Shown: piece by piece, positions 32,700 through 52,260 of the stretch
Position numbering within the stretch: the stretch's first letter is position 1
How the letters are laid out: each line of letters begins with the position of its first letter
NCBI GenBank assembly: GCA_001899635.1
Contig: MKVQ01000003.1
Coordinates: 124,001-188,000 of the forward strand
Length of the DNA stretch: 64,000 bases
Origin: Myxococcales bacterium 68-20
GTDB taxonomy: Bacteria > Myxococcota_A > Polyangia > Polyangiales > Polyangiaceae
Reading direction: 5' to 3'
Translations under genes and position numbers: made by a program
The notes under the pieces: generated by a model
What the model saw: only the letters and a program-made list of their open reading frames with translations
The model's database searches: none
Told to the model about the DNA's origin: nothing

Positions 32700-32758
32700 C
32701 GGGCCCCGAGCATAGTCAACGACGGCTCGGAGGCAACCCTCCACAGCGATCGCGCGGC

Positions 32759-32803
32759 CTCACGCGGCCTCAGGCGGTCTCAGGCGGTCTCAGGCGGTCT
32801 CAG
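32759..32803. repeat. Tandem 10-bp repeat
   Basis: CTCAGGCGGT occurs three times in exact tandem (32769-32798), preceded by a degenerate copy and followed by a half copy. It lies between the esterase start and the hemC stop. It is a simple minisatellite with no obvious function. Confidence 0.85.
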
Positions 32804-32855
32804 CGCTCTCACTTAGCGCGACGGGCCCTCCGGCCGGGAAAAAGCCGGGCGTCCG

Positions 32856-33767
32856 TCAGCCCAGCAAAGCCCCGCCGACCGAGAGCCCGAAGGCGGTGGC
32901 GTCGTCGTCCGAGGCCGGCCACGGGACGGTCTGGTCCTGGCGTGCGTGAACGAGAGCGCCCGTTCCGTTCGCGACGAACGCCCGGAGGCGCATCATGACG
33001 GCGCCGTCCTTCTCGATGCGCTCCGCGTAGGCGCCCAGCGGCGTCTTGCAGTCCGCTCCGAGCGCCGCCAAGACGCCCCGCTCAGCATGGACGCAACGGC
33101 TCGTGACCTCGTCGGCGAGCACCGCGAGGAGCCGGCCCGTCGCTTCGTCGTCGACCCGCGACTCGATCCCGAGGGCCCCCTGCCCGACGGCGGGAAGGCT
33201 GACCTCCGGCGAGAGCACCTCCGTGGCGCGGTCGGCGAGGCCGAGCCGCACGAGGCCGGCGCGCGCGAGGATGATCCCGTCCGCCTCGCCCGCGTCGACC
33301 TTGCGCAGGCGCGTGTCGACGTTGCCGCGCAGCGGGACGATCTCGAGGTCAGGACGCACGGCGAGGAGGTTCGCGGCGCGCCGCAGGCTGCTCGTGCCGA
33401 TCTTCGCGCCCTTCGGCAGATCGGCGAGCGTGCCGTACCGCGGAGCGACGAGGACGTCGCGCGGGTCTTCTCGCTGCGGGATGCAGGTGATCGCGAGGCC
33501 GTCGGGGAGCGTCGCCGGCACGTCCTTGATCGAGTGCACCGCAATGTCCGCCCGGCGCTCGAGCAGTGCCTCCTCGATCTCCTTCACGAAGAGGCCCTTG
33601 CCGCCGACCTCGGAGAGCGGGCGATCCTGGATCTTGTCGCCCGTCGTCACGACCTGCTCCTCGACGAGCTCGAGGTCCGGGTGCGCCGCCTTCAGGCGCG
33701 CAACGAACGCGCGGCACTGCGCGAGCGCGAGGGCGGACCGACGAGTGGCATAGACGAGGCGCGGCAT
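32856..33767 (-). CDS. hemC: Porphobilinogen deaminase (hydroxymethylbilane synthase)
   Basis: A 303-residue enzyme that joins four porphobilinogen units into hydroxymethylbilane. Conserved stretches are Ala-Thr-Arg-Arg-Ser-Ala-Leu-Ala, Gly-Lys-Gly-Leu-Phe-Val-Lys-Glu-Ile-Glu, His-Ser-Ile-Lys-Asp-Val-Pro, Gly-Thr-Ser-Ser-Leu-Arg-Arg, Arg-Gly-Asn-Val-Asp-Thr-Arg, and Cys240 in Asp-Cys-Lys-Thr-Pro-Leu, which carries the dipyrromethane cofactor. Length is normal. hemA and its HemX-like partner lie 8 kb away on the same strand, so the usual hem operon is split here. No ribosome site is striking at ATG 33767. Confidence 0.96.
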   Translation of the reverse strand: MPRLVYATRRSALALAQCRAFVARLKAAHPDLELVEEQVVTTGDKIQDRPLSEVGGKGLFVKEIEEALLERRADIAVHSIKDVPATLPDGLAITCIPQREDPRDVLVAPRYGTLADLPKGAKIGTSSLRRAANLLAVRPDLEIVPLRGNVDTRLRKVDAGEADGIILARAGLVRLGLADRATEVLSPEVSLPAVGQGALGIESRVDDEATGRLLAVLADEVTSRCVHAERGVLAALGADCKTPLGAYAERIEKDGAVMMRLRAFVANGTGALVHARQDQTVPWPASDDDATAFGLSVGGALLG

Positions 33768-34007
33768 GGGCCGGGCATCATAGCGCGCGAGGCAAGCATC
33801 TCGCCGAAGAACGCCGCCGAGAACATGAGCCTCGCGCGGCAGATCGCGATGAAGGTGCTGCGGAGCTCGCCAGCGGCCGCTGCCGTGGCTGTGCTTGGCC
33901 GCTGTCCTCCAGCCCGGCCCCTGGAGAAGAGATCCGAACCTTGGAGAAGAGAAGAGAGGTCGCGACGCGATCCACGCGACGCCGCCCTCCGGCGGGCACC
34001 GCTGATG

Positions 34008-34658
34008 TCAGACGCGTCGCCACGGCGAGAGGCCGTGGCGTCGGATCACTCGGTAGAGGAGGACGAGGTACGTGAGGTCGAGCACGGCGAACGCGACGTA
34101 CACGACGTAGAGGAAGTAGAGCGGACGGCCGAGCTTCTCCTGCGCGTAGATCAGCAGCAGCGTCCCGAAGAAGCGCGCGATGCCGATGTACATCGACTGG
34201 CCCTTGGGATTGTTCCTGCGCAAGAGCATCTGGAGGGACGCTGCGCTCAGCAGGAGCTGTGCTCCGAAGCCCGTGATGCTTCCGCCCGCGCGGTCATTCG
34301 CGTCGATCGTCAAGCCCACGACCGATGCCGCGGACACGACCAGCACGAACACGAACGCCGGCACGAACAGCTTTCGGGGATAGTGGGCTTGCCACTCCTG
34401 ACGCCCGTACCGCAGGTATTGCGCGACCATCACCACGTCCAGCGCGCCCCAGAGGAAGTTCACGAGATTGGCGGGGAACACATCGGGCCAGACGAGGCCG
34501 AAGATCATCTCCCACGAGATGTTCACGCACAGGGGAACGAGCGGCATTCCGTAGGTGCGGTCGAGGAAACCGCGCCGGATGATCATCAGGTAGGTAGCGA
34601 GCCAGAGCACGGCGCATGCGCCGAACGAGGCGAGGAACACGGGATCTTCCGTATGCAC
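34008..34658 (-). CDS. Polytopic membrane protein resembling Pyr4-type terpene cyclases
   Basis: A 216-residue protein with about seven hydrophobic segments. The stretch Tyr-Gly-Met-Pro-Leu-Val-Pro-Leu-Cys-Val-Asn-Ile-Ser-Trp-Glu50 matches my memory of the first conserved block of Pyr4/PaxB-family integral-membrane terpene cyclases, and Asp194 in the last helix (Ala-Val-Leu-Asp-Leu-Thr-Tyr) sits where the family has its second acid. Start GTG 34658 has GGAGG six bases upstream, and the UbiA gene stops three bases before it, so the two are coupled. A UbiA plus Pyr4-like pair suggests prenylation then cyclisation of an aromatic or other acceptor. The family call is from motif resemblance only. 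A small hairpin at 33982-33995 follows the stop. Confidence 0.55.
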   Translation of the reverse strand: MHTEDPVFLASFGACAVLWLATYLMIIRRGFLDRTYGMPLVPLCVNISWEMIFGLVWPDVFPANLVNFLWGALDVVMVAQYLRYGRQEWQAHYPRKLFVPAFVFVLVVSAASVVGLTIDANDRAGGSITGFGAQLLLSAASLQMLLRRNNPKGQSMYIGIARFFGTLLLIYAQEKLGRPLYFLYVVYVAFAVLDLTYLVLLYRVIRRHGLSPWRRV

Positions 34659-34660
34659 GT

Positions 34661-35596
34661 TCAACCTCCGAGCACGTGACGAGCGATGAGCGCGACGAAC
34701 GCGACGAACGCGTCCGTGCCATCGGGGAGCACGTCCGCGAGCAGGGTGACGTTCGCTCCCCTGCCGAGGCGAGCGAGCGTCGCCGCCACCACGACCACGC
34801 ATGGCGCGATCAGCCATCCCGCGGGCGCGAAGAGACCGCCCCACGTTCCGACCGCGACCACCACCGACCAGCAGACCGCGATCACCAACAGAATGCGTGA
34901 CGCGTGGTGGCGGCCATGTCGCACGGCGAGCGTGGGGACCCCATCGCGACGGTCCGCGTCGACGTCGCCGAGGTCGCAAGCAGCGGTGTTCACGAACGCA
35001 GAGAGGGACATCGCGAGGCCCTGCGCGACGAGCACTCGCGCGTCGTGTACGCCCACCGTCGTCGCTGCCCAGACCGCCGCGCCCGCCACGCAGAGCGCGG
35101 TGTACGCGTTCTTCGCGTAGGGAATGTCCTTCACACGTGCGATCCCGCGGCGACGAAGGGCCGGGATGACGCCGAGCCAAGGCATGCAGTACGCCGCGAC
35201 GCTGAGCGGGAACACGATCGTGATCGCGGCGGCGACGGCGCCGCGGAGCGCGTACGCGACGAGAGCCGCGGTCACCAAGAGGAGAGCCGCCATCCCCGAG
35301 CCGCGGGCCCAGCGACGAGCTCCTGCAGCCTTGCCCTCGTCGACGAGGTGGTCGATCGCGTAGCTACCGACGGCCACGCACAGCACCATCGCGAGTACCG
35401 CGATCGACAGCTCGGCGCGCACGAGCACCAGACTCGTCGTGACCTGCGCGGTGATGCCGATGGCAGCCGAAATCGGTGTTCCGGCGATCTTCACGAGCGC
35501 GGCGCGCGCATGGTTCCGGACCGCACGCGTGGGGTTCGGGACGTCCGGTAACGAGCGGGCGTCGGTCGCTCGAAAGAGCGTCGTCGTGGGCAGCAT
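34661..35596 (-). CDS. UbiA-family prenyltransferase
   Basis: A 311-residue integral membrane protein with about eight helices. The two Asp-rich motifs of UbiA enzymes are recognisable: Asp82-His-Leu-Val-Asp86 in helix 2-3 and Asp208-Leu-Gly-Asp211-Val-Asp-Ala-Asp215-Arg-Arg-Asp-Gly, followed by Val-Pro-Thr-Leu-Ala-Val. These bind Mg-diphosphate of the prenyl donor. The acceptor is not predictable; it is not a typical UbiA, COX10 or MenA by surrounding genes. ATG 35596 is well supported by TGGAGGA five bases upstream; the open frame extends to 35740 without related sequence. It is coupled to the downstream cyclase-like gene. Confidence 0.8.
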   Translation of the reverse strand: MLPTTTLFRATDARSLPDVPNPTRAVRNHARAALVKIAGTPISAAIGITAQVTTSLVLVRAELSIAVLAMVLCVAVGSYAIDHLVDEGKAAGARRWARGSGMAALLLVTAALVAYALRGAVAAAITIVFPLSVAAYCMPWLGVIPALRRRGIARVKDIPYAKNAYTALCVAGAAVWAATTVGVHDARVLVAQGLAMSLSAFVNTAACDLGDVDADRRDGVPTLAVRHGRHHASRILLVIAVCWSVVVAVGTWGGLFAPAGWLIAPCVVVVAATLARLGRGANVTLLADVLPDGTDAFVAFVALIARHVLGG

Positions 35597-36110
35597 CGAG
35601 TCCTCCAGAACGCGCGCCATCGCGCGTGAGGCCGCCCGACTGCAGCGCGCGTGCCGGCCCCGACACCGTCCATCTTCGCGGCGGCCACCGCGCATTTCGC
35701 GGGGCGTGGAGAGCGCTCCCCGACGTGCGCGCACGTTCACGCCTGCGTGCGCGCACCGCGTAGCGAGAGGGGCTCCTGAATGCCCTCGCGCCGCCCGGGG
35801 CGCTCGACTCCGTCGACGCCCAGACGGCTACGCGGGCATGTCGTTCGACGCCGGCTTCGTGTCGCCCCGTCTCGACATCGGTCCCGCGAAGCGATCGCCT
35901 CAGTCCGCGCTGCTCGCAGCTCGAGGACGTCCCTCCGCCGCCCGTCAGCGCTCCTGAGCCATGGTCTGCAACTCGGGCGCCGGTTGATTTTCAAGGCGCA
36001 TCGCACTCAAATCCGAACCGAAACGCAAGCAATCGACATCGCCGCGGGATAAGGATCCTACCTTTCAGGTTGGACTACTCGCGTCTCCGAGAAAACGAGG
36101 AGCCTTGCTC
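35597..36110. other. 514-base divergent spacer
   Basis: Region between the divergent UbiA and HEAT-protein genes. I see no supportable gene. It contains two GTGCGCGCAC palindromes (35725-35756) and an A/T-richer stretch at about 35980-36070 that could hold the promoter of the HEAT gene. Confidence 0.5.
35723..35756. promoter_or_regulatory. Twin GTGCGCGCAC palindromes
   Basis: ACGTGCGCGCACGT (35723-35736) and GTGCGCGCAC (35747-35756) share the same 10-bp palindromic core. Their centres are 22 bases apart, about two helical turns, 130-160 bases upstream of the UbiA start. This could be a double operator; alternating GC palindromes do arise by chance in such DNA. Confidence 0.35.
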
Positions 36111-39100
36111 ATGGCTACGACCGCGCGTCTGCTCGAAGAGCTCGAGTCCGTGACTCACCGCGAGCGCATGCGACGCATGGTGCGCCTCGGGGCGGCTTCG
36201 GCCGCGGGTGATACGAACGCGGGCGCCCTCCTCGATGCGCTCTGGGCATCCGGCAAGACATACGAGCGCACCCTCGCGCTCCAGGCGATCTACGGCTCAA
36301 GAGGGCGCGCCGGCGATGGACGCGAGCGCACGCGTTTGCTGGAAGCCGCCACCTCCGCGTCGCGGACGCTCCGTTTTCGTGCGATGCGTCTCGTCGCGAC
36401 TGCGTGTGACGACACGGGAGCGGGAGAGGTACTCCACCGGACCGCTTCACGGAATGCCCGCGGTCGGCTTCTCGCGATGCTTCATCGTCGCGGACGCCGG
36501 GGTGCGATCGCTGCCTTTCTCGAGATGGCCGGTGTGCTCGACGATCCGCGGAACGTCGACCTGCTGCCGCTCGCCTCGCGGGAGCTGGTGGTTCGTGAGA
36601 TGGATGGGTTCCGTCAACACGCGAGCGGGGTCGGATGGATGCGCCTTGCGAAGCATCATCCCGAAGTCGCCGCGAGCGAAGTCGATCGCGCGGCAGCGGC
36701 GAAGCTCGATCCGCGTTCGCGCGCCCGCGTTTTGCCGATCCTCACCGTCACGTCGCGGCGCGCTCCGACGCAGATGCTCGCGGCCGTGGCGCGCCTCTCG
36801 CGGGCGGGCGAGCCGGTGCCCGCCGCGGTCTGGAACGAGCTCGTGAAGCGCCTTCCGCACGAGACCGTGGATCTCCTGCGCGAGCGCGACGAGCACGCCC
36901 TCGTCGGGACGCATGCCCCGGGATCGTTCGCAGGGATTCAGCTCGCGAATGTCGCGCACCGCCTCGGCGCCGAACGGCTCTCGTACGTGGTGCGCCGGGC
37001 CTATCCCTCGCTCCCCGAAGGGCGGCGCGGCCGACGATGGCTGCTCCGGCTCACGCCCGAGGACCGGCGCGCCACGCTCGATGCCTGGGCGCACGGACCG
37101 GCGCGGCGCGCCTGGGGCGGGTTCCTTCTTCGCCACATGCCGAAGGACGAAGTGCGTCGCGACGCGTTCGAACGGTGGGTCGCAGCGGCGCGGGACAAGG
37201 AGGGGATCGTCAGCGTGGCCCGCCTCGCGGACTTGCCGCACGACCTGCGTCACGAGGAAGCCGAGCGCCATCTCGAACGCGTGCCGGCACTCGAGGGCAA
37301 GCCCGAGCGGCTCGCGTGGGCGCGGCTTCTCCCGTTCGAGCGCGCACGGACCAGCCTCGCGAGCTTCCTCGGTCACCCCGAAGGCGAAATTCGCGCTCTC
37401 GCGATGAGCGCGCTGGTCCGAACGGTCGACGGCGATCGTGCGAGTGTGAACGCACTGCTCGATGTCGTGAAGAGCCGGCGTTTCGAGCAGGATCCGGTGC
37501 GCCTGGCGACCATGAACGCGCTCGCGGATCTGCCGTGGGCCTGCTTTCCGGCCTCGACGTTGCCGGCGGTCGCCGAGATCGTCGAAGGGGCGCTCGCCGC
37601 CTCGGACCTCTCGACGACGACGGCGGCACACACGGAGCGGCTCGTCGTCCGCCTCTTCCGCGTCGATCCCGAGTGGGGCGCGGCGTGGCTCGCCGCACTC
37701 GTGAAGACGCGGGGAACGATCACGCAGCTTGGCCTCGGCGAGGGTCTTCTGCCGGACGATCTCGTCCGGTTCGAGCCAGCCTTCGCGAAGCTCGTCGCCC
37801 TCTGGGTGAGTCGCGAACGCGCTGGATCCGTCGTGTGGCTCGCGCGGAGCCTCGGCAAACGGCTCGCGCTCGCGCCCTCGGTGCTTTCGGGTCTCGAGCA
37901 ACTGGCGCGAGAGCTCCCCTTCGTCGGAGTGGCGGCGGCGGCGCTCGACCTCCTCCGACGCGCGGCGCCCGAGCGCTTCGGACGACTCGTCCCCGAGCTC
38001 CTCGGTGACGACGCGAGCTTCCTCGCGCTACCGAGCGTCGCAACGCACGTGTCGTGCATGCGTCAGGATCTGTTGCGCGGCATGCTCGGAACAGCAGCGC
38101 CGGTGCAGGGCCGGTTCGCGACGGGACGCGCGCGATGGGTCCTCGACTTCACCGCGGGAACGCCCACGTGGACGTCGTCCTGCCAGGAGCGCTGGGCGGC
38201 GCAGCTGGTAGGGCTCGCGGCCGACCCTGATCAGGACGTGCCGACGCTGCGCTTCGCGATCGATCGTCTCGCGTCCCTCGCGTTCGCCGACGCGAAACCA
38301 TTGCTTCGGTTCACGTCGGACACGCGCCAGCCCGTCCGCGAGATCGCGATCGACGCGGCGGCACGACTCGACGCAGCGGAAGGGCTCGACACGCTCCTCG
38401 CATGCCTCGCCGACGATCGTGCGCGCTGGGCGATCTACGCGCTGCGCTCGGTCTTCGCCGAGCTCCCGCGGCACGAGGTCCTCGCACGGCTCCGGGCAGT
38501 ACCTCGCGAGAAGGTCACGGTCGCCAAAGAGGTCGTGCGTCTCCTCGGCGAGCTCGGTGGCGAGGACGCGTTCGCCGAGATCCTCGCATTCGACATCCCC
38601 CAGACGAAACGCGACGTACGCATCGCGATGCTACGCGCGCTCTGGGGCTACCTCCACATGCCTGCGGCGTGGGCGACGTTCGAACGCGCGGCCGCCGATC
38701 ATGACTGGGTCGTCGCTTCGCGCATCGCCGACGTGCCGATGGAGCGCCTCACTGAGGACGCCGAGACGCGCCTCGCGGATCTGCTTGCCCAGGTGCTCGA
38801 TCGCCCCGAAGCGGAGCTGCGACTCGATCTCTTGCGTCGCGCCGGGGCGCTGCCGCTCCGGGACGTGACGCGGCGATTCTTTCGGGCAGTGGCCCGCCGG
38901 ATCGGCGCGAAGACGTCGGACGAAGCTCGCGCGGCCACGGCGGCAGCACTCCTCCGCATGCGCGGTGACGACGGCGAGGAAGCTGCGTTCGTCCTCGCCG
39001 AAGTCGACGCGGTCATCGCGCGCCGCCAGACGGCGACCGCGGTGCTCGAAGCGCTTCGGCCTTCGCCCTGGGGCCCTGCCTGGCGCGGTCGTCTCGCGCA

Positions 39101-39485
39101 CCGTGTGCTCCGGCTCCTCGCGACCGATCCGCGGTCCGTGATGCCACGCATCGACTTCGCCGGCCATGTCCTCGATGCGCGCGAGCTCGTGCGCCTGTTC
39201 GAAGAGCTTCAAGCGAGCAGCCTGCTTCACGTCGACGCGCTGGCGGCCGCCTTTGCCAGCGTGGACCGCTGCGTCTCGCCGAGCGTCATCGAGGCCCGTC
39301 TCCGCACCGCGCCGTCGGAGGAGTTGCGCCGGATCGCGCTCCACGCCCTCGTCCGAGAGGCGCGTCTCCGCGGCTGGACGCGCGAGCAACGGGCGCTCCT
39401 CGAGGAATACCGTGCCGATGGCGCGATGGTCGTCGCGAGCGCCGCCGCGTGGGTGTTTCCGCCAGCAGTGGATGCGCAAGCGTAG
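36111..39485 (+). CDS. Large HEAT-like repeat protein, unknown function
   Basis: A 1124-residue, almost entirely helical protein with no signal peptide or membrane segment. Degenerate HEAT/ARM-type helix pairs are visible throughout, for example around 740-830 (Ala-Leu-Arg-Ser-Val-Phe-Ala-Glu-Leu-Pro; Val-Val-Arg-Leu-Leu-Gly-Glu-Leu-Gly-Gly-Glu-Asp-Ala). It is rich in Arg and Ala. HEAT solenoids bind proteins or nucleic acids. Start ATG 36111 has GAGGAG upstream; TTG 36105 is possible. I do not recognise a named family. The gene stands alone, divergent from UbiA, with the 58-bp hemA-like repeat 40 bases after its stop. Confidence 0.7.
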   Translation: MATTARLLEELESVTHRERMRRMVRLGAASAAGDTNAGALLDALWASGKTYERTLALQAIYGSRGRAGDGRERTRLLEAATSASRTLRFRAMRLVATACDDTGAGEVLHRTASRNARGRLLAMLHRRGRRGAIAAFLEMAGVLDDPRNVDLLPLASRELVVREMDGFRQHASGVGWMRLAKHHPEVAASEVDRAAAAKLDPRSRARVLPILTVTSRRAPTQMLAAVARLSRAGEPVPAAVWNELVKRLPHETVDLLRERDEHALVGTHAPGSFAGIQLANVAHRLGAERLSYVVRRAYPSLPEGRRGRRWLLRLTPEDRRATLDAWAHGPARRAWGGFLLRHMPKDEVRRDAFERWVAAARDKEGIVSVARLADLPHDLRHEEAERHLERVPALEGKPERLAWARLLPFERARTSLASFLGHPEGEIRALAMSALVRTVDGDRASVNALLDVVKSRRFEQDPVRLATMNALADLPWACFPASTLPAVAEIVEGALAASDLSTTTAAHTERLVVRLFRVDPEWGAAWLAALVKTRGTITQLGLGEGLLPDDLVRFEPAFAKLVALWVSRERAGSVVWLARSLGKRLALAPSVLSGLEQLARELPFVGVAAAALDLLRRAAPERFGRLVPELLGDDASFLALPSVATHVSCMRQDLLRGMLGTAAPVQGRFATGRARWVLDFTAGTPTWTSSCQERWAAQLVGLAADPDQDVPTLRFAIDRLASLAFADAKPLLRFTSDTRQPVREIAIDAAARLDAAEGLDTLLACLADDRARWAIYALRSVFAELPRHEVLARLRAVPREKVTVAKEVVRLLGELGGEDAFAEILAFDIPQTKRDVRIAMLRALWGYLHMPAAWATFERAAADHDWVVASRIADVPMERLTEDAETRLADLLAQVLDRPEAELRLDLLRRAGALPLRDVTRRFFRAVARRIGAKTSDEARAATAAALLRMRGDDGEEAAFVLAEVDAVIARRQTATAVLEALRPSPWGPAWRGRLAHRVLRLLATDPRSVMPRIDFAGHVLDARELVRLFEELQASSLLHVDALAAAFASVDRCVSPSVIEARLRTAPSEELRRIALHALVREARLRGWTREQRALLEEYRADGAMVVASAAAWVFPPAVDAQA

Positions 39486-39922
39486 GCGCCGCCCGCTTCG
39501 GTCACGGATCGAGGTCCATCGCACCGGTCAGTGCGGGAGGCGCTCTTCGCTCTCCTGGGGCGCAGGCGCGGGCGGCCCGGCGAGGGGTGCCAGCTCCATC
39601 CCCAGCTCGTATCGGATCGGCATCGCCTATCGTATCGAGCCACCTGCCCCGACACCACCTGCCCGAGCCACCTGACGGCGCCGGGCTCGCCGATCTGCAA
39701 AAGACGTCGGTCCTGCAGTACCGGGGATGGCGTGCGGTGCGGGTCACGTCTGCGGTAGCGGCTGCGATCGTCGAGGGGACCGAGGCTCCGGAACGATGCG
39801 CGGCACGCTGTCCGCCGTATTGGCTCTCTCTCCGCCGGCTCGACCACACGCTCTCTTCGCGGTAGTGATGAGCTTGGTCGACGCGTCCGTCGTGAAAGGA
39901 CGCGTGGCGAAAGCGAGCCATC
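39486..39922. other. 437-base spacer containing hemA 3'-end copy
   Basis: No supportable gene. It holds a 58-bp near-copy of the hemA 3' end (39525-39582) and a patch at 39647-39679 where CCACCTGCCCG-like units recur. The rest shows no structure I can interpret. Confidence 0.6.
39525..39582. repeat. Direct repeat copy A of hemA 3' end
   Basis: 58 bases nearly identical to 42147-42205 (two substitutions and one single-base indel) in the same orientation. On the minus strand it would encode the last residues of HemA including the stop, but it is detached from any gene. Confidence 0.9.
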
Positions 39923-40933
39923 ATGCCTCTTCGCAACCGACACACCGTGAGAATCGAAGCCGTCGCCGTGGCGGTCATGCTCGCCGCTTTCGCGTCGACC
40001 ACTCACGACGCGGACGCCCAGGTCGTCCGCGATCACCGCTCGGGTGGCTCTAGCGACGGCAAGGAGTGGACGCCGCCCTCCACGACGCCTTCCGCGCCGC
40101 CTCCGGCGGTGAACGGGCCGCCTCCAACCGCGCCGGGCGAGTTCGCGTTCCAGAATGTCGTCAGCAAGCACTATCTGTCGGCGGCCGGCTCGCTACGCAT
40201 GTCGCCCACCCGAGGAGCGACCGAGAAGTTCCGCATCGTACGTGAGCGCGGGACCTCGTTCGAGCGGATCCAGTCGGCGTCCAACCAATTCGTGATGGCG
40301 AACGCCGACGTTCGGAAGCCTCCGGCGGCGCTGTCCTCGACCGCGGGCGAGGCTACCTTGTTCTCCCTTTCGTCCCGGGGCGCCGGCTCGTACGCGGGGG
40401 CATTCGAGATCGTCTTGAAGGCCGCACCGACGTGGACGTTGCAGCAGGACGGCGACGTGACCGGGCTGAAGCCGACCGTGTCTGCCTGGAACGTCACGAG
40501 CAATGCCCGGGCGCTGTTCTGGATTACGAAGTGCGGCGACATCGGCACCGGGCAGGAGTACGCGCTCCGGCCGGTCGGGGCGACGACGGGCTCGGCTCGA
40601 CAGCGTTTCGTCCGCCAGAGCGACGGTACGTACGCGCTCGAGATCGGCTCGCGGAAGTACTGGTCGGCGACCGGTGGCGGCGGCAATGCCCCGGGCAAGG
40701 GCTCGGACGGCTATCCCATCGAGTACAAGGATTCGATCGGCGCGTACGAGAAGTTCAAGGTGATCGACCAGGGCAACTGTACCTACGCCATCCAGACGGC
40801 CAAGGGCTGGTACTTCGGAATGAAGGCCGGAAGCTGGAACTGGAGCACAATCTCGACGCGAATCAGCGACCCGAACGCAGCGCCGTCGATCGGCTACGTC
40901 GCGTACTGGGAGCTCATGCCGATTGGTCTTTGA
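39923..40933 (+). CDS. Secreted beta-trefoil (fascin-like) protein
   Basis: A 336-residue protein with a signal peptide (about 1-33, ending Ala-Asp-Ala-Gln) and a Pro-rich spacer (50-75). The remainder contains repeated units such as Lys-His-Tyr-Leu-Ser-Ala-Ala, Arg-Lys-Tyr-Trp-Ser-Ala-Thr and Glu-Lys-Phe-Lys-Val-Ile, the pattern of fascin-type or actin-crosslinking beta-trefoils. Such domains bind carbohydrates or protein filaments. The function in bacteria is mostly unknown; some are extracellular lectin-like proteins. It lies inside the repeat-flanked segment. Ribosome site before ATG 39923 is weak. Confidence 0.65.
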   Translation: MPLRNRHTVRIEAVAVAVMLAAFASTTHDADAQVVRDHRSGGSSDGKEWTPPSTTPSAPPPAVNGPPPTAPGEFAFQNVVSKHYLSAAGSLRMSPTRGATEKFRIVRERGTSFERIQSASNQFVMANADVRKPPAALSSTAGEATLFSLSSRGAGSYAGAFEIVLKAAPTWTLQQDGDVTGLKPTVSAWNVTSNARALFWITKCGDIGTGQEYALRPVGATTGSARQRFVRQSDGTYALEIGSRKYWSATGGGGNAPGKGSDGYPIEYKDSIGAYEKFKVIDQGNCTYAIQTAKGWYFGMKAGSWNWSTISTRISDPNAAPSIGYVAYWELMPIGL

Positions 40934-41103
40934 TCGGCCGCGCGGCCGATGGGGCCTTGGTCGCGGAGGTCTGGCAACAGCTCAAACCAATCAACGACGC
41001 CGAGTATATGAATATTCACGATTCCCCCCAGAGGGGCGGAGCGCGGTAGCGAGCGCCCCCCGAACGAGGATGTATCGTATCGCCGCCGTGATAGGTTGTG
41101 TGC

Positions 41104-42003
41104 ATGCGAGTTGCTGCGTTGGCGTTCTCCTTGGCCATGATTGGCGCCGGTGCGGCTGCATGTTCAGGTGCATCGGGCAATCCGATGAGTGCGCCTCCTC
41201 GAGACGATGAGGACGCCGGGGACGACACGAACCATCCGCCCATTGACCCCGCGAGCGACGCGTCCAGCTTGGATGCGGGCGTCTCCGATTCAGGCTCGAG
41301 CCCTGACGCCGATTCCGGCGTTACGGTTCCGCTGCCGCCCGCGCTGCGGCTGGTGCATCTGTGGCCCTCCACTCTCGGACAGCGGGTCAATGTCTGTGCT
41401 CACCGTCACGGCGAACCGCCGAGCGCCACACCGCTGTCCGCGACGCCGCTTTCGTACACGGAGATCACGCCGTATTTCTCCGTCCCCGCCGGGACATATG
41501 ACTTTCGAATCGTCTTCGCGATGAGCGGCTTGCCGGGCAGCCCCGCGACGGACTGCCTGAGTGATGCAGGCTACGGCGCCGACGGGCTTACCGACGTCGT
41601 CGTTACCGGTCCCACGACGTTGACCGTTCACGCGACGTACGACGGCACGCCCGAAATGTTCGCCTTCGCCGATACGGGGACTCCGGTCCCAGCGATGAAC
41701 AACATCCGTGCGCGCAATGCAAATTCGAGCAACGTCACCATCCACGCACGCTCGTTCATGGTTGACCAGTATTGGGGCCCCATCCAGCCAGGTCACGAGT
41801 GGCCGATGCAGGCATTCGGACCGAACGACGGCGCAGTCTTCACAGTGTCTCGTAACGGCGGCGGCACCTATGTCGTCAGCGTGACTGCGCCGGACACTGT
41901 TGGAACGTGGGACATCTTCACCTACCGTCTTGCTTCGAACAGCACTCGGTTGGTGGCGTGTCCCGAATCGACGATCACGACGACCTGCAAGCTCGGCCTG
42001 TGA
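41104..42003 (+). CDS. DUF4397-like lipoprotein
   Basis: A 299-residue lipoprotein: signal peptide with lipobox Ala-Ala-Ala-Cys (Cys about 20), an Asp/Ser-rich low-complexity spacer (25-75), then a DUF4397-like beta domain (Leu-Arg-Leu-Val-His-Leu-Trp-Pro-Ser; Tyr-Phe-Ser-Val-Pro-Ala-Gly-Thr-Tyr-Asp-Phe-Arg-Ile). Probably displayed on the outer membrane; function unknown. ATG 41104 is preferred over GTG 41098. Codon choice is noticeably less GC-biased than in the surrounding genes, fitting an acquired origin. Confidence 0.65.
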   Translation: MRVAALAFSLAMIGAGAAACSGASGNPMSAPPRDDEDAGDDTNHPPIDPASDASSLDAGVSDSGSSPDADSGVTVPLPPALRLVHLWPSTLGQRVNVCAHRHGEPPSATPLSATPLSYTEITPYFSVPAGTYDFRIVFAMSGLPGSPATDCLSDAGYGADGLTDVVVTGPTTLTVHATYDGTPEMFAFADTGTPVPAMNNIRARNANSSNVTIHARSFMVDQYWGPIQPGHEWPMQAFGPNDGAVFTVSRNGGGTYVVSVTAPDTVGTWDIFTYRLASNSTRLVACPESTITTTCKLGL

Positions 42004-42146
42004 AGCAAACTCTGGGGGAGCTGCGAGGGAAGGAAGTGGCGCTGCTGGTAGCTGGGCTCGCTCGAATCGCGATCGCGTGAACGAACGCGCTTCGCGCTGT
42101 TCCGCTGAGCCCACACGGACGAACGCCGCGAGGTCCCGGCCCGACG

Positions 42147-42205
42147 CGGTCAGTGCGGGAGGCGCTCTTCGCTCTCCCGGGGCGCAGGCACGGGCGCGCC
42201 CGGCG
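42147..42205. repeat. Direct repeat copy B within hemA 3' end
   Basis: The functional copy of the 58/59-base repeat; it contains the final codons of hemA (Glu-Ser-Glu-Glu-Arg-Leu-Pro-His-stop on the minus strand). Its partner lies at 39525-39582. Confidence 0.9.
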
Positions 42206-43541
42206 CGGGCGGCTCCGCCCGGGGCAGGGCTTGCGCTGCGGGAGCGGCGGGCAGATCGAAGAGGTGCTGCGCCGCGCGCACGAGATCGTTGCCGTCGCTC
42301 GCGCCCGCTGCCTGCTTCAGCCGCGTCGTCGGCGAGTGGAGGAGCTTGTTCGTAGCGCTCTCGATCATCTGCGCGAGCGCGGCGCGGTCGGCCTCGCCGA
42401 GGTGCTTGAGCCGGCTTCCGAGGCTCCGCTCGAGCTCGGCGACGAGCACGCCCCGCGTCTTGGCCCGGAGCGCGACGATGGTGGGGTTCACGTTGAGGCC
42501 ACGCGCCCACTGGTTCCACGAGCCGAGCTCCGCCTCGACGATCTTCTCGGCGGCGGCCACCTCGGCCTTCCGCGATCGCATGTTCTCGGCGACCTCGCTC
42601 TGAAGATCGTCGACGTCGTAGACGTATGCGTTGTCGATGTGCTCGTGGATGGCCGGGTCGACGTTGCGCGGCACGGCGATGTCGATGAAGAAGAGCGTGC
42701 GCCCTTTGCGCTGCTTCATCACCCGCTTCACGAGATCGCGCGTGATGACGAACGACTTGCTCGACGTGGACGCGACGACGACGTCGGACTGGACGAGCTC
42801 GGACTCGAGCTGCTCGATGGGCGCCGCCGTCGCGTTGAAGTGAGCCGCGAGGCTCGCGGCCCGCTCGAAGCTGCGGTTGCAGATGCGGATCGCCTTCGCC
42901 TGCTGGCCGAGGCTCTTGGCGGCGGCTTCGGCCATCTCGCCCGCCCCGACGAGGAGCACGGTGCGGTCGCCGAGGTCTCCGAAGATGCGCTTCGCGAGAT
43001 CGACGGCGACGCTGGAGATGCTGACGGTCCCCGCGCCGAGCTGCGTCTCGGTACGGACGCGCTTGGCGACGGTGAACGCGCGGCTCACGCAGCGTGCGAG
43101 ATGGCTGCGGAGCGCACCGGATGCGACGGCGGCGTCGAAGGCGTCCTTCACCTGGCCGAGGATCTGCGGCTCGCCGAGGACCATCGAGTCGAGGCTCGCC
43201 GCCACCCGGAAGACGTGCCGGACGGCATCTTCCCCGGTGCGCTCGTAGAGGTACGCGCGGAGCTCGTCGATGTTGCGGGCGCCGATGTGATCGCGGAGCG
43301 CCTCGCGGATCGCCGTCGACGCGAGCTGCGCGGCCGCTTCGTGGCTGGTGCCGCTCTTCGGCAGGCCGATCACCTCGACGCGATTGCACGTCGAGAGGAA
43401 CATCACCTCGTCGATCTCCTCCCGCGCCGTGAGCCGCGCGAGGATCTCCGGAAGGAGCTCGCTGCTGCTCGCGAAGCGCTCGCGCACCTCGACCGGCGCG
43501 GTCTTGTGCGACAGACCGATGACGACGACCGGCAACGTCAT
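42150..43541 (-). CDS. hemA: Glutamyl-tRNA reductase
   Basis: A 463-residue enzyme that reduces glutamyl-tRNA to glutamate-1-semialdehyde, the first step of C5 tetrapyrrole synthesis. Landmarks are Gly-Leu-Ser-His-Lys-Thr-Ala-Pro-Val near the N-terminus, catalytic Cys52 in Ser-Thr-Cys-Asn-Arg-Val-Glu, Leu-Gly-Glu-Pro-Gln-Ile-Leu-Gly-Gln-Val, Gly-Ala-Gly-Glu-Met-Ala-Glu (NADPH) and Asp-Ile-Ala-Val-Pro-Arg-Asn-Val-Asp. The C-terminal 35 residues are a Pro/Ala-rich tail ending in the repeat described at 42147. Start ATG 43541 overlaps the stop of the HemX-like gene by four bases (ATGA). Confidence 0.96.
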   Translation of the reverse strand: MTLPVVVIGLSHKTAPVEVRERFASSSELLPEILARLTAREEIDEVMFLSTCNRVEVIGLPKSGTSHEAAAQLASTAIREALRDHIGARNIDELRAYLYERTGEDAVRHVFRVAASLDSMVLGEPQILGQVKDAFDAAVASGALRSHLARCVSRAFTVAKRVRTETQLGAGTVSISSVAVDLAKRIFGDLGDRTVLLVGAGEMAEAAAKSLGQQAKAIRICNRSFERAASLAAHFNATAAPIEQLESELVQSDVVVASTSSKSFVITRDLVKRVMKQRKGRTLFFIDIAVPRNVDPAIHEHIDNAYVYDVDDLQSEVAENMRSRKAEVAAAEKIVEAELGSWNQWARGLNVNPTIVALRAKTRGVLVAELERSLGSRLKHLGEADRAALAQMIESATNKLLHSPTTRLKQAAGASDGNDLVRAAQHLFDLPAAPAAQALPRAEPPAPGAPVPAPRESEERLPH

Positions 43542-44437
43542 GGGAGGATCTCGGGCGCTCGGCCGTGGCCCGAGGAGGAGGAGGAGGACGAGGTCGGCCC
43601 TGCCTGATGGAGCTGAGCCGTGACCGGAGGAGAAGGAGAACGAAGCAGGTAGAGCATCAGGACCGCGACGGCGAAACCGAAGCCCGCGATCGTGCCGTAC
43701 GCCGCGCGACGTCCGCGCCACCCCACCGCCGCACGCATGAAGAGGACCGCGGCGATGACGAGCCACGTGACATAGCCGAAGATCGAGCGAAGGACCTCGC
43801 TCGGCGCGCCGAGCTCGACGTGCCGTGCCCAGAGCGTGCCGGTGACGATCCCGATCGTGAGGAGCGGAAAGCCCGCGAGGAGGAAGCGGTGCTCCGCGCG
43901 GTCGAGGACGTCGAGCGGCGGAAGGCGACGGAAGACACCGTCGATCTGCTTCTTCTTCAGCAGGTGCTCCTGGATCAAGTAGAGCGTGGCCGCCGAGAAG
44001 GCGAGCGTGAAGAGCGCGACGCCGAAGAGGTTCGTGGTGACGTGGAACGGGAGGATCGCGCTCTTCACGCGTGCGCTCGGCTCGGCGCCGCCACCGACGA
44101 AGCGAGAAGCGAGAAGCGACGTCAGCGCCAGCGGCGCGATGAACGCGCCCGCGACCTCGATCTTGAGGCGCTTGCGCGCGAGCACGTACGCGACCGCCAT
44201 CGACATCGACGCGACGCTCATCGGGAAGTGGATCCCCTCGACCGGGCAGACGCGGAGGACGAGCGAGGCCACGACGATGTGCGCGGCATGGAGCGCGGCG
44301 CCGGCGCCGACCAGGCGAGGCCCGAGGAGCCCCACGTCTCCCTTGCCGCGGACGAGGAACCGCAAGAAGAGCACCGACGCAGCGACGTACGCGGCTGCAG
44401 TCAGGTAGAAGAGCCCTTCGGCGACGGTCTCGTTCAC
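43538..44437 (-). CDS. hemX: HemX/CcsA-like cytochrome c assembly membrane protein
   Basis: A 299-residue protein with about eight transmembrane segments. His-Val-Thr-Thr-Asn-Leu-Phe-Gly-Val-Ala-Leu-Phe and the Gly-Thr-Leu-Trp-Ala stretch are typical of the cytochrome c assembly (CcsA/CcmC/HemX) family, with candidate haem-ligand histidines. In many bacteria a gene of this family precedes hemA and affects its level; CcsA members handle haem for cytochrome c. The four-base overlap with hemA supports the HemX role. The C-terminus is a low-complexity Ser-rich tail. Confidence 0.85.
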   Translation of the reverse strand: MNETVAEGLFYLTAAAYVAASVLFLRFLVRGKGDVGLLGPRLVGAGAALHAAHIVVASLVLRVCPVEGIHFPMSVASMSMAVAYVLARKRLKIEVAGAFIAPLALTSLLASRFVGGGAEPSARVKSAILPFHVTTNLFGVALFTLAFSAATLYLIQEHLLKKKQIDGVFRRLPPLDVLDRAEHRFLLAGFPLLTIGIVTGTLWARHVELGAPSEVLRSIFGYVTWLVIAAVLFMRAAVGWRGRRAAYGTIAGFGFAVAVLMLYLLRSPSPPVTAQLHQAGPTSSSSSSSGHGRAPEILP

Positions 44438-44452
44438 GAGGATCCCCTCTTC

Positions 44453-44872
44453 TTACAACGTCCCCTCGGCGAAGCGCTCGAGCATTTCCTCGTCGCTCTT
44501 CGGTCCCGAGCCGATGTCCGTGCGTCCTGCCCGCGCCGTCATTCGCTCCGGCGACAGGAGGTGATCCTCGAAAGGCGTCGTCGGAACGCCGGCCCAGCCG
44601 GGCACGACGTCGTACGCGTTGTCACCGATGATCATCGAGTTCTCGAGGATCTCGGCGCCCATGGTCTCTAGCTCCGCCTTCGACTTCACCCTCCCGAGAA
44701 GGCCGTGAGGGTCCGGCGAGCCCGTGACTTCGACGACGACGTGCACGACCTCCGTGATCCCATAGCGGCGCCCCTCCGCCAGGATGACCAGCTCGGTCGG
44801 CGTGAGTTCGATCTTGCCTTCGACTCCCCACTGATCGAGAGATGCTTGAGGGAAGAACACGCGGTTTTGCAT
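44453..44872 (-). CDS. Conserved-looking hypothetical protein (139 aa)
   Basis: A small soluble protein; not recognised. The first 75 residues look like a beta-rich domain (Gly-Lys-Ile-Glu-Leu-Thr-Pro-Thr-Glu-Leu-Val-Ile-Leu-Ala-Glu-Gly), reminiscent of a PilZ-like barrel but without the PilZ RxxxR motif. The C-terminus is polar (Asp-Ile-Gly-Ser-Gly-Pro-Lys-Ser-Asp-Glu-Glu). Start ATG 44872 overlaps, on the opposite strand, the start of the next gene (CATG at 44870-44873), so the two begin back to back. It precedes the HemX-like gene by 15 bases and may be co-transcribed with the hem pair. Confidence 0.65.
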   Translation of the reverse strand: MQNRVFFPQASLDQWGVEGKIELTPTELVILAEGRRYGITEVVHVVVEVTGSPDPHGLLGRVKSKAELETMGAEILENSMIIGDNAYDVVPGWAGVPTTPFEDHLLSPERMTARAGRTDIGSGPKSDEEMLERFAEGTL

Positions 44873-48396: not shown

Positions 48397-49271
48397 CGAC
48401 TCTCCTTCGGACCGACTCCGCGTCCTCGCGCCTCGTCGGTCGACGATTGCGGAATCTTCTTCACCGCGTCGCTACGCGGGTAATCACGTCGCAGGCGATC
48501 CCAGTACTCCTTCGCGCGATCGGCCGACCCGAGACGGTCGTGGCACATGCCGATCTTGAGGAGCGCGTCGGGCGCCTTGTTGCCTCCGCCGAAGCGAGCG
48601 AGCACCGCCTCGAACTGCTCGGCTGCGCGGAGAGCCTCCCCGCGCGCGAAATAGACCTCGCCGCGCCAGTAGAGCGCGTTCTCCACGTACGGATGGTCGG
48701 GCCAGCGAACCATGAACCCGGCCAGCGCCTCGAGCGCGCGGTCGTACTGCTTCGCGTTCACGAGCGAGACCGCGTTCTCGTAGCTTCGCTTCGCCTCCGG
48801 ATCCATGATCGAGGGGCGCGGCGCATCCGAGCTCGCCCCCTCGTCCGCCGGCTCGACGTACGCGTCGCCCCTCGCGCGGCTCGTCGTCCTTCCGCGCGCG
48901 GAGCGCGAGGACGATCCCGATCCCTGGAGCCGGATCTCCGGACGCACGTTGGGATCGTTCGGGTCGTCGCTCTCCCGTGCGTCCTCGGTATCGCCGAGCT
49001 GCACCGTCCGCGGCACGACAGGCGGTGACGCCGGCGCGGTCTTCGCGGCGCGCGCCTTCTCCTCGGCCGGCACGTCCTCGAGCAGGCGGAAGCGCTCGTT
49101 GCTCCGATCCTGGTCCACCTGGACCTTGCCGATCGCCTCGCCCATCTCGGCGAAATGGCGGTCCGCAGCGCCTTCGGCGTGCGAGCAGCCGGCCCCGAAA
49201 AGGCCGCCAGCGAGCGTGACCCACCACGCTGCGGCACCGAACAGGAGGCGCATTGGCACACCAGAGCGCAT
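48393..49271 (-). CDS. YbgF/CpoB-like TPR lipoprotein
   Basis: A 292-residue protein. The N-terminus has a lipobox Gly-Ala-Gly-Cys (Cys about 23 from ATG 49271), then a charged region, and a C-terminal TPR module (about 160-275): Glu-Asn-Ala-Val-Ser-Leu-Val-Asn-Ala-Lys-Gln-Tyr-Asp-Arg-Ala, Tyr-Trp-Arg-Gly-Glu-Val-Tyr, Lys-Ile-Gly-Met-Cys. This is the arrangement of CpoB/YbgF proteins that couple Tol-Pal with cell-wall synthesis; no tol genes are in view. Start ATG 49271 or 49253; neither has a clear ribosome site. Confidence 0.75.
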   Translation of the reverse strand: MRSGVPMRLLFGAAAWWVTLAGGLFGAGCSHAEGAADRHFAEMGEAIGKVQVDQDRSNERFRLLEDVPAEEKARAAKTAPASPPVVPRTVQLGDTEDARESDDPNDPNVRPEIRLQGSGSSSRSARGRTTSRARGDAYVEPADEGASSDAPRPSIMDPEAKRSYENAVSLVNAKQYDRALEALAGFMVRWPDHPYVENALYWRGEVYFARGEALRAAEQFEAVLARFGGGNKAPDALLKIGMCHDRLGSADRAKEYWDRLRRDYPRSDAVKKIPQSSTDEARGRGVGPKESR

Positions 49272-49461
49272 GGTTTTAGGGTAGGCCCCGGCACGGCTCC
49301 GGGCCAATTTCGTGGAGTCGAGGCGCCTGCGCCGTCGCGGACGGCCCTCTCCGCCCGCAGCGTCCCTCGGATCCGCCCCGTCCGTCGCATGGGGGCGGAA
49401 GCCCCCCGCCCCACGAACGGGTGGCTTTACGATGGGCCGCGGCTAAGGCAGAGTCTGACGA

Positions 49462-50277
49462 ATGGCAGCGTCCCGGCGAAAGCTCGATCTGAGGAAGACC
49501 CTCTTCCTCCTGCCGAACATGATCACGCTTTCGAGCATCTTCTGCGGGTTCGACTCGATCCGCCTGAGCGCGACCTCGACCGGAGACGACGACTACTACC
49601 GGGCGTCCCTCCTGCTCGTGTACGCGCTCTTCTTCGACATGCTCGACGGGCGTGTCGCCCGGCTCACGAAGACGCAGAGCGCGTTCGGCCTCCAGATCGA
49701 CTCCCTCGCGGACGTCATCTCGTTCGCGGTGGCGCCGGCGCTCCTCGTCTACAAGTGGTCGCTCGTCCAGAAGGGCACCCTCGGCATCGTGATCGCCTTC
49801 ACGTTCGTCGGGGCCGGCGCGGTGCGCCTCGCGCGCTTCAACGTCCTCTCCATGGGAGATAGCGGCAAGCCGACCAAGCCGGGCAAGTACATCATCGGCC
49901 TGCCGGTCCCGGGGGCCGCCGGCATCCTCATCTCTCTCGTCGTCGCCAACCACGCGATCAACGGCGACCTCTCGGGTCCGAAGTACGTCTACCCGATGAT
50001 GGTCCTCACGTGCTTCCTCGCGTTCCTCATGGTCTCGACGATCCGCTTCCGGTCGTTCAAGGACCTGAAGCTCAACGCGCGCACGGTGGGGCTCGTGCTC
50101 TTCGCGGTCGCGTCGAGCGCGATCGTGTCGCTGCAGACGAAGCCGGCGTTCGTGCTCGTCTGGCTCCTCGCGTTCTACGTGGTCATCGGCCTGGTCGAGA
50201 CCCTGATCGCGCTGCCGAGCGGCCTCGCCAAACGGCGCCGCGAGGCCACGGAGCGATCGAGCCTCCCGCCCTCCTGA
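49462..50277 (+). CDS. pssA: CDP-diacylglycerol-serine O-phosphatidyltransferase
   Basis: A 271-residue integral membrane enzyme with about seven helices. The CDP-alcohol phosphotransferase signature Asp-Gly-x2-Ala-Arg-x8-Gly-x3-Asp-x3-Asp is complete (Asp-Gly-Arg-Val-Ala-Arg ... Gly-Leu-Gln-Ile-Asp-Ser-Leu-Ala-Asp). The N-terminal Pro-Asn-Met-Ile-Thr-Leu-Ser-Ser-Ile-Phe-Cys-Gly fits type II phosphatidylserine synthases. It makes phosphatidylserine, the precursor of phosphatidylethanolamine. No decarboxylase gene is adjacent. Confidence 0.92.
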   Translation: MAASRRKLDLRKTLFLLPNMITLSSIFCGFDSIRLSATSTGDDDYYRASLLLVYALFFDMLDGRVARLTKTQSAFGLQIDSLADVISFAVAPALLVYKWSLVQKGTLGIVIAFTFVGAGAVRLARFNVLSMGDSGKPTKPGKYIIGLPVPGAAGILISLVVANHAINGDLSGPKYVYPMMVLTCFLAFLMVSTIRFRSFKDLKLNARTVGLVLFAVASSAIVSLQTKPAFVLVWLLAFYVVIGLVETLIALPSGLAKRRREATERSSLPPS

Positions 50278-50389
50278 CCTCGCTCGGGAGCTCCGCCGCC
50301 GCGGACGAGTCGTGCGTCGCCTTGGTCCCGATGGTTCGGCCATTCGCGGGCCGGGCGTCGGTTTCGAGGTAGACTGACGGCATCCCACG

Positions 50390-52219
50390 ATGCTCGACGA
50401 CCTCTACCACCTGCGAGAGCGCGCGCGAGCCGCGCTCAATCGCGGCGACCTCGACGACGCAGCGAACGCGCTCGTCTCGGCCGCCCAGCAGACGCACGTC
50501 GCCGAGCACGACTACCTCTCGGTGCTCCGCCCGCTGGTCGAGGTGCTCATCCGTCGCAACGACGCTCGAAGCGCGCTCACCGTCCACTGGTACATGGCGT
50601 TCTCCGAGCCCGACGGCTGGCAGCGCGCACGCACGCTCTTGCCGAACGTCACGCCGGTCGATCGCGCTCGCACGCTCGCGGCGACGAACGACATGGCGGG
50701 CGCGGCCCGCGAGATGGAGAACGCAGGCCTCGTCGCGGCGGCCGCGATCTACCGCGAGAAGGCGGACGACTGGCGCGGCGCTCGCGCGCTCTGGTCGCGC
50801 CTCGGACAGGTCGCCTCGGGCGGCGCAGACGCGTACAACGCCGCGCTCGTACAGTTCAACCTCGCCCGATGCGCGAAGAAGTGCGGTGACGCACGGCAGG
50901 CCCGTGAAGCGAACGTCGCCGCCGTGCGTCTCCTCGAGGAGGCCGCCGACTACTTCGAGAGCGTCGGCCAGCGCGAGCGCGCATTCGACTGCTTCCAGGT
51001 CCTCGTCCAGATCGGGCGGGAGAGCGGGATGTTCGAGGACGTGCTCGAGGGCTTCGTCAACTGCATCCGGATCCTGCGCGAAGACCACCTCAAGTACTTC
51101 GCGCTCCAGTACTTCGAGGACGCGCTCATGGCCGCGAAGGAGCGCGGCGAGCTCTCCGCCGCGGCGACGCTCGCGCGCGAGGCCGCCGACTACGCGCGCG
51201 TCCTCGGCATGGCGAGCGCTTCGGCACACTACGTCGTGATGCAGGCGGAGCTCTGGCGCGACGTCGCGCGGCAGCACCTCGAGCGCGGCGCCCCCGTCGA
51301 GATCGCGGAGAACGCGCTCCTCGCCGGCATCCTCGCATTCGGCGAGGTCGGGCACTACGCGCGCGTTGGCGGGCTCTACAAGGAGCTCGCGCAGATGGAC
51401 CTCGAAGAGGCGCGCCGCAAGCACTACGCGCGCGCAGCCAAGCGCTACGAGGGTGTGCGCGACGAGCCGATCGACACCGCTCCCCTCCCCTCGCATCTCA
51501 GGCAGGACAACCAGTTCCCCGACGTCTGGCACGTCGACCTCATCGAGTGGGAACAGCAAGGCAGCGCCGCCGAGGCCTGCGCCGACGTCCTGCTCGATCG
51601 CCGCTGGCCCGATCTCATCCGACGCAAGGCGATGCTCGCGCGGTTGACCGCGTTCGCAGTGGAGGGGCGTCCCGACGACGCGAGCGGCCCCGCGACGAAC
51701 GCGCGCGTCCGCCTCGCGGATCAGCTCGCGCAGCTCCAGCTCTACGCCGTGCTCTCTCCGCTGGAGAAGCTGTTCCAGCGCCCCGAACGCCCCGTCAAGG
51801 TCGCGGTGCTCGCGGCGATGCAGCAGCTCTTCTTCAAGCGAAGCTTCGTCACCGTGCGCGCGGGCCTGCGCGACGCCGATCCGGCGGTCGTCGAGCAGGC
51901 GGCGAAGGCCGTCGAGTCGCTCTACTTCCAGCATGCGTTCGACCCGCTCTCGCGGATCGTCCGCGAATCGTCGCAGGCGCCGGTCCGAGCGTCGGCGCTC
52001 CGCGCCCTCGCGCGCGTCGACACGATGGAGGCCGCCGAGTTCCTGCTCGGCGTCCTCGAGCACGGCGCGCCCGCGGACCGCACCGCGGCCCTCGAGGGGC
52101 TGAAGCGCTCGCGGGGCGCCCGCTTCATCGAGCTCGCGCGGAGCGCGATGCACGCGACGACGGCCGAGGTGCAGGCGGTGCTGCGCGACGTCCTTCGCGC
52201 GCGCGGCGTCGCCGCCTGA
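50390..52219 (+). CDS. TPR/HEAT repeat protein, unknown function
   Basis: A 609-residue soluble, helical protein. Residues 1-340 have TPR-like helices (Ala-Arg-Ala-Ala-Leu-Asn-Arg-Gly-Asp-Leu-Asp-Asp-Ala; Ala-Ala-Asp-Tyr-Phe-Glu-Ser-Val-Gly-Gln-Arg-Glu-Arg-Ala-Phe), and residues about 450-600 are HEAT-like (Val-Leu-Ala-Ala-Met-Gln-Gln-Leu; Ala-Leu-Arg-Ala-Leu-Ala-Arg-Val). No signal peptide. TAGACT about 16 bases before ATG 50390 may be a -10 element. Probably a scaffold; partner unknown. Confidence 0.75.
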   Translation: MLDDLYHLRERARAALNRGDLDDAANALVSAAQQTHVAEHDYLSVLRPLVEVLIRRNDARSALTVHWYMAFSEPDGWQRARTLLPNVTPVDRARTLAATNDMAGAAREMENAGLVAAAAIYREKADDWRGARALWSRLGQVASGGADAYNAALVQFNLARCAKKCGDARQAREANVAAVRLLEEAADYFESVGQRERAFDCFQVLVQIGRESGMFEDVLEGFVNCIRILREDHLKYFALQYFEDALMAAKERGELSAAATLAREAADYARVLGMASASAHYVVMQAELWRDVARQHLERGAPVEIAENALLAGILAFGEVGHYARVGGLYKELAQMDLEEARRKHYARAAKRYEGVRDEPIDTAPLPSHLRQDNQFPDVWHVDLIEWEQQGSAAEACADVLLDRRWPDLIRRKAMLARLTAFAVEGRPDDASGPATNARVRLADQLAQLQLYAVLSPLEKLFQRPERPVKVAVLAAMQQLFFKRSFVTVRAGLRDADPAVVEQAAKAVESLYFQHAFDPLSRIVRESSQAPVRASALRALARVDTMEAAEFLLGVLEHGAPADRTAALEGLKRSRGARFIELARSAMHATTAEVQAVLRDVLRARGVAA

Positions 52220-52260
52220 GCGGCTTCTGCTCTATTAGATCGCGTGGCTACTTGTGCGCC

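Follow-up and report, generated by a model that had tools for sequence, protein, structure and literature searches.

The hemA-hemC locus

The window considered here, by which we mean the whole stretch of 64 kb of DNA that was analysed, carries the haem operon ccsA-hemA-hemC with a gap of about 8.35 kb between hemA and hemC (33790-42146). The genes and other features of this region are listed below in window coordinates; modules A and B are the two portions of the gap that lie on either side of a detached copy of the hemA 3' end.

32856-33767, minus strand: hemC (porphobilinogen deaminase, Pfam), the ancestral next gene after hemA
33791-39524, no strand: module A, the rest of the inserted DNA, on the hemC side of copy 1, GC 0.696
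33792-33878, plus strand: at the left end of the insertion, probably what remains of an ISAs1-type transposase C-terminus (peptide matches in relatives)
34008-34661, minus strand: Pyr4-like transmembrane terpene cyclase (Pfam PF25129, E=7e-32)
34661-35599, minus strand: UbiA-family prenyltransferase (Pfam PF01040, above cut-off)
36105-39485, plus strand: HEAT-repeat protein, 1126 aa (Pfam HEAT_2, weak)
39525-39587, minus strand: repeat copy 1, detached hemA 3' end in the same orientation as copy 2, at a distance of 2622 bp
39588-42146, no strand: module B, cargo between the two repeat copies, GC 0.653, absent from all same-genus relatives
39923-40933, plus strand: secreted ricin-B-like beta-trefoil protein, 336 aa (RicinB_lectin_2, PF14200, E=1e-4, below curated cut-off)
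41098-42003, plus strand: DUF4397-like lipoprotein, 301 aa (DUF4397, PF14344, E=2e-5, below curated cut-off)
42147-42209, minus strand: repeat copy 2, comprising the end of the hemA coding sequence with the stop codon and the 3 bp that follow it
42150-43541, minus strand: hemA (glutamyl-tRNA reductase), intact (Pfam GlutR_N, Shikimate_DH and GlutR_dimer), with an ortholog in 12/12 genomes of the genus
43538-44437, minus strand: cytochrome c assembly membrane gene (ccsA-like, which we take to be ccsA), upstream of hemA at the start of the operon, syntenic in 11/11 relatives

Our comparison rests on 11 genomes of the same genus, Labilithrix (the relatives in what follows), which together with our own make a genus set of 12. 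In all 11 relatives ccsA, hemA and hemC are consecutive and the spacing between hemA and hemC lies within 37-792 bp, being 37-272 bp in ten of them and 792 bp in G004, which has its own insert of 0.8 kb in this spacer. For the two nearest relatives, the alignment blocks with the window stop at 33787-33792 and restart at 42135-42146. About 8.35 kb of DNA has been inserted here into a deeply conserved haem operon, which evidently tolerates being split by 8 kb of DNA at hemA. The sequence-only reading of this DNA had pointed to relatives as the place to look for an empty site, and hemA does adjoin hemC in each of the 11 same-genus genomes; as to extent, it was right about the 2.6 kb flanked by repeats but missed the full insert, for the insertion spans 33790-42146 and those 2.6 kb therefore form its right-hand third only.

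Beyond the genus we considered 44 further hemA loci from other genomes (L044-L087; loci L039-L043 repeat five of the 11 relatives), 33 of which have hemC on the same strand within 562 bp of hemA. The remainder comprises two loci with longer spacers, L044 and L047, one with hemC on the opposite strand (L050) and eight in which hemC is not visible, some through contig end. The spacers of L044 (1447-5882, 4.4 kb) and L047 (4373-6566, 2.2 kb) are occupied by insertions of independent origin, in other genera. As a separate observation, the spacer of the two nearest relatives consists of unrelated tandem repeats, with a 35-bp unit in L015 (9216-9326) and a 19-bp unit in L016 (6264-6358); the L015 array, of 3.2 copies, was considered as a series of decayed hemA ends and discarded, its match being not above that of shuffled sequences.

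The repeat of the hemA 3' end

When the two copies are aligned pairwise (39525-39587 with 42147-42209), 59 of the 63 columns are identical and there is one gap, the resulting score being 104, whereas random pairs of 260-bp windows reach at most 40 and shuffled copies, set against the whole 64-kb window, at most 38. Searching the complete genome of 11.9 Mb retrieved the repeat in exactly two places, both at the hemA locus, and by inspection of the repeat list of the window this is the sole long, near-identical pair outside tandem arrays and paralogous coding regions. Among such arrays the window has one of 5.6 copies of a 63-bp unit at 1800-2151. A direct repeat of 58 bp in the same orientation, about 2.6 kb apart, had been noticed in the sequence-only reading and is borne out by these data, which add no further copy anywhere in the genome.

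The same reading had envisaged that the repeat might reflect a conserved protein motif. The agreement between the copies, though, covers not only the genus-conserved end ...RLPH but also the variable stretch of the HemA tail, and because the two have this stretch in common, the repeat is a duplication of DNA and the motif alternative can be set aside. Nor is copy 1 the end of a second gene, since a stop codon closes the hemA reading frame no more than about 100 bp upstream of it. Residual hemA sequence adjoining the repeat was sought at 39588-39922, 42004-42146 and 39486-39524 and not found. Beyond copy 1, the flanking DNA resembles that downstream of hemA in no relative, so that the ancestral flank is unrecognisable there; the flank of copy 2 scores slightly better, with 18 in one relative, where the null 95% point is 17, and no significant value in the others. 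The spacer sequences examined from the relatives contain no second hemA end. One further candidate for a hemA remnant, at the left edge of the insertion (33834-33915; p=0.005, 200 shuffles), was rejected because the best match of the relatives lies elsewhere in hemA and random pieces of our own genome equal its score.

Cargo of the insertion

Read from hemC towards hemA, the insertion presents the transposase remnant, the terpene cyclase, the UbiA protein, the HEAT protein, copy 1 of the repeat, the trefoil protein and the DUF4397 protein. The last two had been described as such in the sequence-only reading, and Pfam agrees in both cases with matches below the curated cut-offs; the relaxed codon use ascribed to them applies to the DUF4397 gene, which falls at the 4th percentile of codon score among 912 genes, but not to the trefoil gene, at the 35th. 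Neither gene was found in any of the other 384 of 385 genomes, with 5-6 candidates scored per genome, and no parental copy was found elsewhere; a separate search of 60 genomes returned one weak partial match to the DUF4397 protein. Of 60 genomes sampled from the family, 7 besides our own have relatives of the HEAT protein. The Pyr4-like cyclase is present in 14 of 193 genomes, our own and 13 others, none of the latter belonging to the genus. A second Pyr4-like copy resides in our genome at C23:236699-237304. The position of the cyclase beside the UbiA prenyltransferase (34008-35599) suggests a possible small meroterpenoid cassette. According to the abstract of PMC13307353, what Pyr4-like cyclases do in bacteria has largely not been explored.

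The left edge of the insertion deserves separate attention. The three best non-self matches of the peptide encoded at 33792-33878 are full transposases from relatives, aligned in register, and a profile built from six independent ISAs1 transposases ranked this segment first of 1211 six-frame pieces, with E=0.17. The peptide had no match in Pfam, NCBIfam or plasmids. We take this segment to be the probable, and no more than probable, vestige of an ISAs1-type transposase C-terminus, given the E value that the independent profile yields. The left-edge DNA has seven matches in our own genome, and the three inspected lie in unrelated genes. Because the remnant sits exactly at the left boundary, it could be taken as the trace of an insertion driven by an IS or a composite transposon. 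Such an origin is very improbable, given that the remnant is found at one edge only, where a composite transposon would have an IS copy at either end, that its match to the independent profile is weak, that the ISAs1 transposase tested has no match in our genome, and that a long repeat of a gene end is not a product of IS activity.

Searching the five inserted genes for recombinase domains gave no match and no integrase was found in the insert, extending to its whole length what had been said of the repeat-flanked part. There is no Rfam match within 32700-44500 and the only tRNA of the window is at 60252, which gives no sign of a tRNA or other RNA family as target here. These results bear directly on the earlier interpretation of the locus as site-specific integration at the hemA 3' end, with reconstitution of the gene and later loss of the recombinase. 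Its geometry is the right one, since we do find a gene 3' end, a direct repeat, an intact hemA and an empty site in relatives. The site-specific system is what fails to appear: a recombinase domain was detected in none of the five genes, the outer left edge near 33790 lacks a copy of the hemA end, with the consequence that the repeat does not bound the insertion, and the hemA-end repeat is absent from all three insertions of G004, L044 and L047. As these independent insertions in the same spacer lack the repeat, nothing points to repeated use of one attachment site. Without enzyme, outer repeat or site reuse, an integrase-driven event is improbable.

Similar loci in the same genome

We scanned 1.64 Mb of the 11.9-Mb genome, window included, for direct repeats. 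The 27 raw repeat rows reduce to nine widely spaced loci, hemA and eight more, after removal of tandem arrays, short spacings and repeats within the same gene: we dropped a tandem array at C1:200021-201770 (12 rows), a repeat with 310 bp spacing at C1:238280 and two rows within one C5 gene, and we merged two C1 rows (245755-249498) into the recA locus and two C44 rows (48785-57300) into a single locus. Five of the nine repeats overlap a gene 3' end, compared with 1.7 expected (P=0.01); leaving out hemA, which had been chosen beforehand, the count is 4/8 (P=0.046). The target sequences at the other loci are unrelated and vary in length from 46 to 455 bp, and for this reason a long, variable target duplication fits better than a specific att site, which counts further against site-specific integration at hemA. 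The density of such repeats is 9/81 20-kb pieces in our genome versus 3/19 in G003, 0/20 in G030 and 2/21 in other genera; a raised density in our genome is unsupported, its value being not clearly above those of G003, G030 or the other genera. The loci other than hemA are the following.

C44:48785-49037/56846-57300: rhodanese locus, 455-bp target flanking 7.8 kb of cargo
C44:64392-64590/67708-67907: locus of a presumably PqqB-like gene, with a 200-bp gene fragment beyond the cargo (a 778-aa orphan gene)
C1:192470-199927: PepSY-Gabija locus, the 3'-terminal 92 bp of a PepSY-like gene repeated beyond a Gabija system
C1:245187-248402: candidate locus at what we take to be recA, its 3' end and downstream DNA (319 bp, 85%) repeated 2.9 kb downstream
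C5, C23 and two in C3: further candidate repeats from the nine-locus set

The rhodanese locus is the cleanest scar, with a single-copy target in two relatives. Its target consists of the final 33 bp of one gene, the rhodanese gene and the final 33 bp of the gene that follows, its cargo includes an rve-type transposase, and its left copy has lost an internal piece. G005 and G006 possess the 455-bp stretch once, between the same neighbours and with no cargo. The same neighbours and absence of cargo are found in G004 (L244 6807-7156, G004:C91), where the rhodanese gene is inverted in place, while in G009 and G010 the gene and the rhodanese lie 140 and about 640 bp apart, respectively. Inserts of 6.5, 3.2 and 7.2 kb are present at or beside the spot in G003, G007 and G008, with no repeat detected; a match to the locus is lacking in G001 and G002 and is only weak in G011. 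Because other relatives carry different inserts at or beside this spot, it constitutes a hotspot of insertion.

At the PqqB-like locus the cargo is absent in 8/8 relatives that have both flanks on one contig, the flanks being 17-71 bp apart; the repeated piece is internal to the gene, and therefore a deletion in the left copy, that is decay, must be assumed. The 92-bp repeats of the Gabija locus enclose GajA (E=5e-212), GajB (E=6e-176) and two further genes, and no integrase was found in the four cargo proteins searched. The DNA between the repeats of the recA locus is repetitive and presumably RHS-like. The same scar pattern occurs at several loci of one genome, two of which have cargo-free relatives.

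Copies of this type need not all be target duplications. G003 offers a cautionary case at 847 kb, an 86-bp gene fragment located within an insertion that it does not flank; the source of the fragment is 6.7 kb away, with conserved DNA between. The case lends substance to a reading in which copy 1 at hemA would have been copied ectopically from nearby DNA as template, during repair when part of the insert was joined, and hence would be no marker of the entry of module B, a reading with which the unrecognisable ancestral flank beyond copy 1 also agrees. We regard it as unlikely, since it predicts neither the overlap of repeats with gene ends (5/9) nor the exact flanking of the cargo at the rhodanese locus.

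Origin of the insertion

What is observed at hemA is a duplication, an insertion of 8.35 kb, an empty site in relatives and a similar pattern at other loci. The best explanation of these observations, to which we give about even chances, is stepwise accretion in the hemA-hemC spacer, with module B arriving together with a target duplication of about 62 bp. Modules A and B would be two separate loads, B being probably the last. Module B would have entered at the 3' end of hemA and duplicated its target, the second copy of which (copy 1) would remain on the far side of the module; hemA would have stayed whole because the duplicated stretch includes its end and stop codon. A plausible cause would be a break with offset nicks, the long overhangs of which were filled in during the capture of foreign DNA with no dedicated recombinase. 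The different GC content of the modules, 0.696 in A versus 0.653 in B, argues for separate loads. Against stepwise accretion count the position of copy 1, internal to the larger insertion, the lack among the relatives of one having module A without B, and the nature of the flank beyond copy 1, where ancestral post-hemA DNA would be expected and the sequence is like that of no relative.

The main rival supposes that two strains with different loads in the spacer, one with hemA-B and the other with hemA-A-hemC, were stacked by recombination through a single non-homologous join, copy 1 having come along with module A. No special enzyme would then be needed to explain why copy 1 is internal, why the order is hemA-B-copy1-A-hemC and why the copies are 94% identical, and the scenario agrees with a spacer invaded repeatedly, as it has been in G004 (0.8 kb), L044 (4.4 kb) and L047 (2.2 kb). 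Yet neither module occurs by itself in any of the genomes compared, and the splice does not account for the rhodanese locus, whose cargo has a copy of the target at each outer edge. We judge it rather doubtful, if the least so of the rivals.

Stepwise accretion at hemA might also be one instance of something broader. We tentatively propose, as a possibility clearly below an even chance, that a recurrent, recombinase-free capture of DNA, duplicating 50-450 bp of target, brings accessory genes into Labilithrix, the Gabija system included; the events would be tolerated mainly where the duplication spans a gene 3' end and leaves the gene intact, and hemA, the rhodanese junction, the PepSY gene and recA would represent stages of decay. 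For the question of how genes enter bacterial chromosomes without integrase or transposase, several cargoes with the same scar of long duplication, and with empty sites in relatives, render the process countable in terms of duplication length, position and decay, and in terms of the role of non-homologous end joining or natural transformation. The most useful part of our results lies outside the window, in the several scarred loci of one genome, two of them with empty sites in relatives.

Comparison with known systems

Islands moved by tyrosine recombinases integrate at gene 3' ends and leave a direct repeat of the gene end, an intact gene and an empty site. Unlike them, the hemA insert has no integrase and no copy of the repeat at its outer edge, and the other loci have unrelated targets; hence neither a tyrosine or serine recombinase nor att repeats at both ends are found at hemA. 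Transposed genes of Arabidopsis are described in PMC2869330 as flanked by host-derived direct repeats that are single at the orthologous empty site. This is a eukaryote in which the parental copy often exists elsewhere, in contrast to the trefoil and DUF4397 genes.

The closest parallel is insertion with long target duplication, which is said to have been reported in Helicobacter pylori by Nobusato et al. in 2000 (Gene 259:99). Our search of the literature on long target duplication, Labilithrix and islands of Myxococcota found no myxobacterial insertion of this kind. The papers PMC3031569, PMC1643837, PMC3874152 and PMC4978471, which cite that report, derive the process from comparisons of H. 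pylori strains and tie it to restriction-modification genes, with repeat lengths of the order of 100 bp in one of them (PMC3874152), and entries in the reference list of PMC11708052 place it beside papers on end joining and the capture of DNA at breaks. Our case differs in that one Labilithrix genome is compared with other species and not with strains, that the copy at hemA sits within a larger insertion and that the cargo there is not a defence system; the repeat copies stand at both ends of module B but not of the whole 8.35-kb insertion, there being no one-module strain among the genomes compared. Our case shares with long target duplication, as those papers describe it, accessory genes between long and variable direct repeats of target DNA, a target that is single-copy in a relative and the lack of a mobile-element enzyme; target repeats of tens to hundreds of bp, empty relatives, absence of a recombinase and recurrence with varied targets and lengths are all found here. 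Our Gabija locus parallels the link that the same papers draw with restriction-modification genes. The hemA case would fit among the instances of a known but poorly understood process, insertion with long target duplication.
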